Shown here: piece by piece, positions 46,037 to 47,929 of the stretch
How positions within the stretch are numbered: the stretch's first letter is position 1
Layout of the letters: every line of letters starts with the position of its first letter
DNA from: Streptomyces deccanensis
Lineage (GTDB): Bacteria; Actinomycetota; Actinomycetes; Streptomycetales; Streptomycetaceae
DNA length: 64,000 nucleotides
Direction of reading: 5' to 3'
NCBI RefSeq assembly: GCF_022385335.1
Contig: NZ_CP092431.1
Location: 3,286,001 to 3,350,000 of the forward strand
Made by a program: the position numbers and the translations under genes
Notes under the pieces: model-generated
Seen by the model: the letters and a program-made list of their open reading frames with translations, nothing else
What the model was told of the DNA's origin: nothing
The model's database searches: none

Positions 46037-47929
46037 ATGACCGACGGCCTCTCCGGGTCCGCGACCGCCGCGTACACCCGGATCTACGAGGAGCAGCACC
46101 CGCGCCTCGTCGCGTACGCGCGCTCCCTCACCCGGAACTCCTGGACCGCCGAGGACCTCGTCGCCGAGGCCCACTTCCGGGTGTGGCGGCGGCTCTCCGG
46201 GGGGCACGAGATCGACAACGTGCCCGCGTATCTGATGACGACCGTGCGGCATCTCGCGGCGGCGGTGGGCTCCACCGCCACGCGGGAGACGCCGCTGGAT
46301 CCGACGGCTCCCGAGCGGGCCGAGGGCGATGTGCGGGTGGCCGACGCCGCCGATCCCGCCGAACAGGTCTCCTCCGTCGATCTGTTGGTGCGGGTGCTGG
46401 GGCAGCTGCCCGAGCGGTGGGTCCAGGCGCTGTGGCTGGCCGAGGCGGAGGGGCAGCCGCTGGAGGCGGTCGGGCAGCGCATCGGTGCGAAGCAGGGCGC
46501 GACGGCGGTCCTGCTGCACCGGGCGCGCGAGGGGATGCGCCAGGCGTTTCTGCGCGAGCAGCCCGGGGCGCCGATCGATCCGGCGTGTCAGGTGCGTTGG
46601 GGGCGCATGCCGGCGTATGTGCGCGGTACCGCGACCGCCCGGCAGTCCGAGCAACTGCTCAGCCATGTGGACGCCTGCGACGACTGCCGGGCGCGGCTCG
46701 CCGTGCTGATGCGCACGAACGACCGGCTGCCCGCGCTCGTCGGTCCGGCTCTGCTGGTGTTCGTCGTGGGCGGGGGTGGGGGCAAGGTGCTGATGGCCCT
46801 CACGGGGGGCTCCGCCGGTACGGCCGCGGTGTTCGGGTCCGCGGGTGCGCATGGGAGTAGCGGGTTGCTGCATGCCGTGCGGCAGGTGGCGAGTGGGGGG
46901 CGTGGGGCCGGCGGGGTGGGTGGGGTGAAGGTGCCCACCGTCGCGGCGGTCGGGGCGGCCGCGGCTGCCGCCGCCGTGGTGGCCGGGATCGTGCTCGGGC
47001 CCCTCGACTCGGGGGCGGGTCCCGCGCAGCGCGTTCCGGTCGCGCAGGCGCCCGCACCGCATCGGCCCGAGGCCGCGTCTCCTGACGTCGTCGAGCGCCG
47101 GGGGGCCCTCACGGACGCGGTCGACTCGACTGCGGTGGAGGGTGACGGCGGGGCCGTGGAGCGGGGGGCGGTTCGGGGGGCGGATGAGGAGGAGGTCGTG
47201 GCGGCGCCGGGGGGTGAGGAAGCGGCTGGGGAGGAACCTGGGGGCGGGGAGCCGGGGGTTGAGGAGCCGGGGGCCCAGGAACCAGGGGCTGAGGAACCGG
47301 GGGCTGAGGAGCCGGGGGGTGAGGAGTCGGGGCCTGCCGAGCCGGCTGGGCCTGTGGTGGAGCCGCCGGTGGAGGAGGTGCCGCCTGTCGTCGAGCCGCC
47401 GGTTGAGGAGGGTCCTCCCGTGGTGGAGCCGCCTGTCGTGGAGCCGCCCGTAGAGCAGCCGCCGCCCGTGGTGGAACCCCCTGTGGTGGAACCGCCCGTG
47501 GATGAAGCCCCGCCCGTCGTGGAACCGCCGGTTGAGGAGGGTCCTCCCGTGGTGGAACCGCCTGTCGTGGAGCCGCCCGTAGAGCAGCCGCCGCCCGTGG
47601 TGGAACCCCCTGTCGTGGAACCACCCGTGGATGAAGCCCCGCCCGTCGTGGAGCCGCCGGCTGAGGAGGGACCTCCCGTGGTGGAACCGCCTGAGGAGGA
47701 GGGGCCGCCTGTCCTGGAGCCACCCGTAGAGGAGGCGCCGCCCGTGGTGGAACCCCCTGTGGTGGAACCGCCCGTGGAAGAAGCCCCGCCCGTCGAGGAA
47801 CCACCTGTAGAGGACGAGCCTGGTCCGCCGGATGTGGTTGAGCCGGGGGGCGGGGAGGCTGCGCCGCCTGGGGAGCCGTTGCCGGAGGATCCGGGGAGTG
47901 GGGTCGGGGGGCCTGGAGGCGGTTGTTGA
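46037..47929 (+). CDS. ECF sigma factor fused to zinc-finger, membrane and Pro/Glu-repeat domains
   Basis: A protein of 630 residues. Residues 10-175 are an ECF sigma factor: region 2 (YEEQHPRLVAYARSLTRNSW) and region 4 (LPERWVQALWLAEAEGQPLEAVGQ). Residues 185-225 carry a zf-HC2 anti-sigma motif, with His210 in SHVDACDDC. Hydrophobic segments lie near 235-256 and 300-325. Residues 395-610 are low-complexity: first EEPGA-like, then PPVVEPPVEE-like repeats, including a perfect 43-residue duplication. The layout predicts a membrane-tethered sigma whose acidic, proline-rich tail crosses the cell wall. GGAGAG precedes the ATG by 9 nt. The signal and the release mechanism are unknown. Confidence 0.87.
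   Translation: MTDGLSGSATAAYTRIYEEQHPRLVAYARSLTRNSWTAEDLVAEAHFRVWRRLSGGHEIDNVPAYLMTTVRHLAAAVGSTATRETPLDPTAPERAEGDVRVADAADPAEQVSSVDLLVRVLGQLPERWVQALWLAEAEGQPLEAVGQRIGAKQGATAVLLHRAREGMRQAFLREQPGAPIDPACQVRWGRMPAYVRGTATARQSEQLLSHVDACDDCRARLAVLMRTNDRLPALVGPALLVFVVGGGGGKVLMALTGGSAGTAAVFGSAGAHGSSGLLHAVRQVASGGRGAGGVGGVKVPTVAAVGAAAAAAAVVAGIVLGPLDSGAGPAQRVPVAQAPAPHRPEAASPDVVERRGALTDAVDSTAVEGDGGAVERGAVRGADEEEVVAAPGGEEAAGEEPGGGEPGVEEPGAQEPGAEEPGAEEPGGEESGPAEPAGPVVEPPVEEVPPVVEPPVEEGPPVVEPPVVEPPVEQPPPVVEPPVVEPPVDEAPPVVEPPVEEGPPVVEPPVVEPPVEQPPPVVEPPVVEPPVDEAPPVVEPPAEEGPPVVEPPEEEGPPVLEPPVEEAPPVVEPPVVEPPVEEAPPVEEPPVEDEPGPPDVVEPGGGEAAPPGEPLPEDPGSGVGGPGGGC
47240..47825. repeat. Coding repeats EEPGA and PPVVEPPVEE
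   Basis: Two classes of short repeats encode the tail of the sigma fusion. A 129-bp block (43 codons) starting near 47385 recurs in tandem near 47514 with only a few synonymous changes, which indicates a recent duplication. Confidence 0.85.

Follow-up and report, generated by a model that had tools for sequence, protein, structure and literature searches.

The 64,000-nucleotide stretch of Streptomyces deccanensis DNA analysed here (contig NZ_CP092431.1, positions 3,286,001 to 3,350,000; hereafter the window, whose own numbering is used throughout) encodes a 630-residue protein in which an extracytoplasmic function (ECF) sigma factor, a zinc-finger anti-sigma domain, hydrophobic segments and a proline-rich tail are fused in a single frame, and its gene lies back to back with one for an SsgA-like protein (SALP). 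The fusion is conserved, as are the pairing with the SALP gene, the DNA elements between the two genes and a cysteine at the tip of the tail. Our preferred reading, to which we would give an even chance, is that the protein is a one-molecule envelope-signalling sigma factor that would be tethered and inactive and, once released, would act with Crp to switch on the SALP gene. According to the available text of two reports, most of the sigma/anti-sigma fusions of Actinobacteria are predicted ones, and one ECF52 member has been studied (PMC8999054; PMC5826349).

The fused frame runs for 630 codons from an ATG without a stop and contains the following parts ahead of its hydrophobic segments:

46037..47929, plus strand: fused ECF sigma / zinc-finger anti-sigma / membrane / proline-rich tail protein, 630 aa (open frame, Pfam, NCBIfam)
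46085..46258, plus strand: sigma region 2, residues 17-74 (Pfam Sigma70_r2)
46385..46531, plus strand: sigma region 4, residues 117-165 (Pfam Sigma70_r4_2, below cut-off)
46586..46687, plus strand: zinc-binding anti-sigma motif C184...H210-x3-C214-x2-C217 (PF13490, 26.0 bits)

Sigma region 2 scored 35.9 bits against a Pfam cut-off of 24, the zf-HC2 finger (residues 188-218) 26.0 bits against 22.2, and region 4 stayed under its cut-off (17.4 bits vs 25.7); the NCBIfam model TIGR02937 (sigma70-ECF) covers residues 12-170 with a score of 47.0 against a cut-off of 42.9. The four zinc ligands, spaced C184-x25-H210-x3-C214-x2-C217, are all invariant in two alignments that both include the window protein, namely A1 (n=44, taken from 121 proteins that themselves came from 400 database matches) and A2 (n=55, comprising 54 of 80 Streptomyces loci and the window protein), the latter also used for an AlphaFold2 (AF2) run of residues 1-265.

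These 80 Streptomyces loci were kept from 105 relatives found in a contig search and are the basis of the locus counts below; 69 of their frames stop within the record (complete proteins) and 11 run off it. The C...H-x3-C-x2-C finger lies in frame with the sigma in all 80, and a version with separate sigma and anti-sigma was found in none of them. Across the genus, 58 of the 392 Streptomyces genomes searched, among them the own genome, have an orthologue at E <= 1e-50, and a second family of the same order contributed five loci with orthologues at 52-56% identity. The dN/dS values of the sigma and zinc-finger part (residues 1-228), 0.03-0.34 against nine relatives, indicate that this region is under purifying selection. 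Sigma regions 2 and 4 agree with ECF structures when AF2 models are compared, and the sigma part is probably functional because of this match and the purifying selection. The structure-alignment rows span mainly residues 5-176, so that they support no conclusion on the zinc-finger part, and the confidence of the models, expressed as the predicted template modelling score (pTM), was 0.33 at full length and 0.46 for residues 1-265. A sequencing join of two frames was considered and rejected, given the sigma/finger frame shared by 80/80 loci and the purifying selection on residues 1-228.

Much of this had been read correctly in the initial annotation of the locus, made from the sequence alone, which had placed sigma, anti-sigma finger, membrane segments and repeats in one unbroken frame: its H-x3-C-x2-C motif with His210 belongs to the full ligand set of C184, H210, C214 and C217, its one or two membrane segments correspond to two hydrophobic segments at about 231-249 and 302-320, its estimate of about 215 residues of repeats is fair for the tandem repeats at 47206-47814, and the single-frame conservation that it had set as a check holds in the 80 loci. 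Proteolytic release of the sigma, which it had put forward as an idea, is the mechanism that the literature proposes for such an architecture (PMC8999054; PMC5826349). The overall interpretation is upheld as regards fusion, anchoring and one-frame conservation and gives way on the rarity of the fusion, since ECF52, ECF53 and ECF48 proteins with the same layout have been published, and on the charge sensor taken up below. The conserved tip cysteine, the divergent SALP gene and the regulatory region between the genes lay outside that annotation.

The layout of the window protein is thus that of ECF52 (SCO4117), ECF53 and ECF48, groups that carry a C-terminal zinc-finger anti-sigma domain and one to two membrane helices and whose activation is thought to be proteolytic (PMC8999054); some ECF52 and ECF53 proteins also have predicted carbohydrate-binding and hydrolase domains (PMC10766802). 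Compared by description, the ECF53 and ECF48 proteins of Actinobacteria resemble the window protein in the finger fusion, the membrane helices and the proposed proteolysis, and IutY from Pseudomonas putida (ECF243) resembles it as a membrane anti-sigma fused to a sigma that is released by proteolysis (PMC8999054). ECF52 proteins, like the window protein, join a sigma, a zf-HC2 finger, a membrane segment and a proline-rich extension in a single chain, and the ECF52 member SCO4117 from Streptomyces coelicolor, next to which lies atrA, combines the proline-rich region with a carbohydrate-binding module (PMC5826349). Truncated SCO4117 that keeps the sigma domain gives a milder phenotype than the full deletion, and the authors describe the activating protease as uncharacterised and the promoter motif as theoretical (PMC5826349).

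Whereas ECF52 ends in a carbohydrate-binding domain, the window protein has none by Pfam (E up to 0.1), and none was found by Pfam in the orthologues L015, L073 and L138 (E up to 0.01). An ECF52-like paralogue in the own genome (L002), which bears an NPCBM domain, is 34% identical to the window protein with the parts in the same order, and no SALP match was found in the 3.8 kb that cover its locus. Together with L003 and L005 it came from a query with the N-terminal sigma/anti-sigma part; the three loci (near G000:C1 4.86, 4.20 and 8.17 Mb, respectively) have tails ending in NPCBM, ricin-B lectin or CBM2 domains and form a set of possible membrane regulators with differing carbohydrate-binding tips, among which Pfam scored sigma and finger in L002 only. 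The architecture is a conserved and known one, while the SALP partner, the regulatory region and the tail-tip feature were not found reported; no description of the sigma/SALP pair or of the tip cysteine emerged from the titles, opening lines of abstracts (some lists being capped) and text passages searched, a search that did not extend to most subscription papers.

Two hydrophobic segments follow the finger:

46727..46783, plus strand: hydrophobic segment H1, residues 231-249, probably membrane-associated and not spanning (Kyte-Doolittle hydropathy; glycine-rich, has proline)
46940..46996, plus strand: hydrophobic segment H2, residues 302-320, likely the sole segment to cross the membrane (Kyte-Doolittle hydropathy, charge asymmetry)

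Glycine-rich H1 is separated from the cleaner H2 by a glycine-rich loop with Arg and Lys. Among 64 orthologues the Kyte-Doolittle value of H1 is 1.59-2.11, in a segment that is glycine-rich and contains proline, and that of H2 has a median of 2.3. Charges were counted in the 25 residues flanking H2 for 75 of the 80 loci, giving a mean K+R/D+E of 2.3/0.1 before and 1.7/1.9 after the segment, with a net charge more positive before H2 than after it in 72 of the 75 orthologues and equal in one. By the positive-inside rule, H2 would therefore export the tail. The main segment of the CBM2 paralogue is flanked by +6/-3 before and +1/-6 after, and the single hydrophobic segment of the ricin-B paralogue by +5/-2 and 0/-3. 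The tail is likely to lie outside the cell, a placement that depends on H2 being the sole span and that is favoured by the charge bias and by relatives in the own genome, which carry carbohydrate-binding domains at the tail end. Were H1 and H2 both to span, the tail would be cytoplasmic and would act as a linker, degron or partner-binding tail and not as a wall probe. The hydropathy of H1 speaks for two spans, as does the AF2 model, where a single helix leads from the zinc finger through H1 (215-244), and anti-sigmas that run straight into a membrane span offer a parallel; we nonetheless consider this topology unlikely in view of the positive H1-H2 loop, the charge asymmetry about H2 and the paralogues, of which the ricin-B one has one hydrophobic segment and the CBM2 and NPCBM ones at least two before their carbohydrate-binding domains.

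The part of the protein beyond H2 comprises two features:

46997..47926, plus strand: proline/glutamate-rich tail, residues 321-630, with tandem repeats at 47206-47814 (Tandem Repeats Finder, TRF)
47924..47926, plus strand: codon of the tip cysteine C630; the window protein has no other Cys beyond the zinc finger (sequence)

This stalk varies fast in sequence and length while the tip cysteine persists. The top database match, P0002, is identical to the window protein at 404 of 410 positions over residues 1-410, yet it is 528 residues long vs 630 here and has 5 EPPV units vs 15. Tails were analysed in 64 of the 69 complete proteins, the others (L091, L120, L123, L129 and L135) having been missed by the zinc-finger expression; all five have H-x3-C-x2-C and the tip Cys. 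The tail after H2, 310 residues in the window protein, ranges from 78 (L066; next shortest, 172) to 359 residues, its proline content from 10 to 33% and its excess of acidic over basic residues from -2 to +69, and the acidic (PPVVEPPVEE)n form is confined to the nearest relatives and is not family-wide. Because net acidity and repeat motif vary widely among orthologues, the charge sensor that had been suggested for the tail is weakened; for the mechanical sensor, also suggested, evidence was found neither in favour nor against. A Cys lies within the last 60 residues of 67 of the 69 complete proteins, the two without it being L066 (392 residues, tail frame apparently changed) and L080; in L012 the last Cys is 46 residues before the end. 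There is one tip Cys in 57 of the 64 analysed proteins, often within G-x-x-C, and there are two tip-region Cys in five, with W-x-G-P-x3-C at the tip. No Cys occurs elsewhere in the 64 tails after H2 (11,310 residues), and at some loci, such as L069 and L093, H1 or H2 has an extra Cys. The other-family loci L015 and L016 lack any Cys beyond the zinc finger, and the tip Cys appears to be a Streptomyces feature as far as seen.

With a rise of 0.31 nm per residue, 200-300 residues of polyproline could span about 60-90 nm, a length sufficient for crossing the wall of a Gram-positive cell; the figure is arithmetic and not evidence of reach. Stalk and tip might also be relics, left behind when an ECF52-like carbohydrate sensor lost its carbohydrate-binding domain. 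Consistent with this are the same part order and 34% identity shared with the NPCBM-bearing paralogue, whose last-but-one residue is also a Cys; persistence of the tip Cys in 67/69 proteins despite extreme stalk turnover is, however, not expected of a relic, and among 64 tails only that of L066 is shorter than 172 residues, which makes the relic account improbable. The tails of L066 (Streptomyces sp. MNU76), P0003, P0007 and P0012 exit the proline-rich frame part-way within repeat DNA, where assembly error and real frame loss are indistinguishable.

The partner gene is transcribed away from the sigma gene:

45309..45749, minus strand: divergent SsgA-like (SALP) gene, 146 aa (PF04686, 104.5 bits)

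Its product scores far above the PF04686 cut-off of 25 bits, and the start of the gene was placed according to a GGAGA ribosome-binding site (the frame at its longest would begin at 45824). A SALP gene is adjacent and divergent in 71 of the 80 Streptomyces loci, and the other eight window genes tested near the locus are each kept in 3 to 10 of the 80; these counts use flanks of at most 6 kb, shorter at contig ends, so that distant genes are undercounted. All nine SALP-less loci have about 5.8-6.0 kb of upstream sequence, and contig ends therefore do not explain the absence. Divergent SALP genes were also found in 36 of 40 loci of a second set with 1.5-kb flanks, which includes the window's own locus and may share species with the 80; among the 36 are each of the five loci from the other family (L015-L019). 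With seven SALP genes in the 10.1 Mb of the own genome, we estimate the probability of chance adjacency at less than about 1% per locus. The pairing is one-way, SALP often occurring without the sigma: SALP relatives at E <= 1e-38 are present in 117 of 384 genomes vs the sigma in 58 of 392, and at least 59 of the 117 lack the sigma. In Streptomyces, SALPs determine where division and wall synthesis take place (PMC4255298), SsgA-like genes are over-represented among vancomycin/bacitracin-induced genes in S. coelicolor (PMC3123327), and the text of a study of ssg gene control (PMC4457907) contains neither 'ECF' nor 'Crp'. Back-to-back placement with a division-type gene may mean that the sigma connects cell-wall state to division.

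The DNA between the two genes holds three candidate elements:

45887..45916, minus strand: candidate ECF-type promoter of the SALP gene, GCGTAAT-N17-GGTCGA (conserved placement before the Crp-type site)
45937..45950, no strand assigned: Crp-type site GTGACGCGAGTCAC (fits GTG(N)6GNCAC)
45964..45992, plus strand: housekeeping-like promoter of the sigma gene, TTGAGA-N17-TACAAA (conserved upstream)

Alignment of 81 upstream regions (80 loci and the window; 72 with and nine without the SALP gene) revealed four conserved blocks, namely a Crp-type palindrome, a sigma-facing promoter, a SALP-facing element and a leader with GGAG ahead of the sigma start. GTG(N)6GNCAC, the strong Crp motif of S. coelicolor (PMC10033298), occurs on the sigma strand in 50 of the 81 regions, the window included, as compared with a mean of 3.4 and a maximum of 7 in dinucleotide shuffles (n=40); the looser GTG-N8-CAC occurs in 80 (shuffle mean 10, maximum 16). 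The site between the sigma and SALP genes, which matches the Streptomyces Crp consensus, is a candidate Crp site. The sigma-facing TTGA-N18-20-ACAAA is present in 62 of the 81 regions (shuffle mean 0.08), at 27 bp from the Crp-type site in 28 sequences and at 38 bp in 25 (53/62), and steps of about one helical turn in distance, on this side as on that of the SALP gene (26-27 or 17 bp), are what a bound activator facing polymerase would give. The ATTACG element precedes the Crp-type site in 70 of the 72 SALP-bearing regions and in none of the nine without the gene, its start lying 26-27 bp from the start of the Crp-type GTG in 65 regions, 28 bp in one and 17 bp in four; on the SALP-facing strand, CGTAAT is followed 17 bp on by [GC]NTC[GA] in 52 of 70 regions and has a 16-bp spacer in three. 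L014 has the SALP gene and no ATTACG, and SALP-less L069 has ATTACG elsewhere, within the sigma reading frame and not ahead of the Crp-type site. Six of the nine SALP-less regions retain the sigma promoter beyond the Crp-type site; the nine do not represent as many independent losses. By eye, TTACGC and GTGA-N6-[CT]CAC are retained between both genes in L015-L018 of the other family, and ATTAC with a weaker TGTGA-N6-TCATA in L019. Joint absence of motif and SALP gene supports a promoter role for the motif, without naming the sigma that reads it.

The strict pattern GCGTAATN{17,19}KTCRA has a single match in the 10.1-Mb own genome, at the SALP promoter; a three-mismatch scan of the same genome was swamped (348+343 matches vs 175+223 for the reversed control). 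All 58 genomes of the genus search that have the sigma together gave 81 strict matches, 21 of them beside the sigma gene and all 30 bases long, and in 37 of the 58 the strict pattern has no match beside the sigma gene. The strict motif marks the SALP promoter, and at this stringency no further regulon comes into view.

Sigma and SALP genes might alternatively be linked and share a Crp-controlled region while some other sigma reads the SALP promoter and the tethered sigma acts elsewhere. This is a possibility that we rate as well short of even: it would fit the lack of clear motif enrichment elsewhere in sigma-bearing genomes and the differing, housekeeping-like promoter of the sigma gene itself, but the spacing and composition of the motif are ECF-like, the motif is absent from this position in 9/9 SALP-less loci, and its CGTAAT element is unlike TTGACA.

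Several observations weigh against our preferred reading, in which the released window sigma would transcribe the SALP gene. Recognition of the CGTAAT/GGTCGA promoter by this sigma is a prediction, and the published SCO4117 motif, CSGYN-17bp-SRHA, is not recognisably the same. Away from the SALP locus, enrichment of the strict motif is unclear, with 60 matches in the 58 sigma-bearing genomes vs 55 in 58 genomes without the sigma, chosen in list order, that are smaller on the whole; without clear enrichment elsewhere, the motif therefore brings no further regulon. A second SALP gene of the own genome (G000:C1:576756-577160, locus L190), near a chromosome end and with a product 59-60% identical to the window's, has a Crp-type site upstream, but it is without the SALP-promoter motif, and no sigma lies within about 4.7 kb of it. 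Owing to the common ancestry of the upstream regions, their counts are not independent events, and 9 of the 62 distances from Crp-type site to sigma promoter are 28, 30, 33 or 35 bp, neither 27 nor 38. As to topology, H1, too, lies above a simple hydrophobicity threshold, and the H2 flanks of the NPCBM paralogue are without a near-side positive bias (1/1 before, 2/4 after). The modest AF2 confidence (pTM 0.46) is too weak to argue domain packing.

Under the preferred reading, the fused zinc-finger domain would hold the N-terminal ECF sigma inactive, and H2, most likely the sole span, would tether it, with the proline-rich stalk and its cysteine-bearing tip projecting into the wall. A wall or envelope signal acting on stalk or tip would lead, through regulated proteolysis or an altered zinc finger, to the freeing of the sigma, which would then transcribe the divergent SALP gene from CGTAAT-N17-GGTCGA with adjacent Crp as co-regulator, and the SALP would adjust peptidoglycan or septum placement. 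If this is right, a direct transcriptional line would run from wall state to a division or wall-remodelling protein. We entertain more tentatively a bolder version, doubtful as it stands, of a dedicated envelope-to-division switch with a wall-spanning, length-variable stalk, a reactive or disulfide-forming tip Cys, the SALP gene as main or only target and co-gating by cAMP-Crp; if true, a single molecule would unite sensor, anti-sigma and sigma, and its regulon, of little more than one gene, would act on peptidoglycan or on where septa are placed. The protein family offers a candidate target gene with a defined promoter, Crp as a second input and a residue at the tip, as well as a natural stalk-length series for asking whether reach through peptidoglycan matters.

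Adjoining the SALP gene, at 43233-45229 on the minus strand, are what we take to be a permease-like and a TIGR03943-like gene; they have repeat-rich N-terminal or linker parts and are kept in 10/80 and 9/80 loci, respectively. Tandem repeats of 27-30 bp lie just downstream of the sigma gene (48070-48401), in a span to which no gene is assigned, and positions 49431-50885 on the plus strand hold a small hypothetical gene and, after it, a sortase gene (PF04203).
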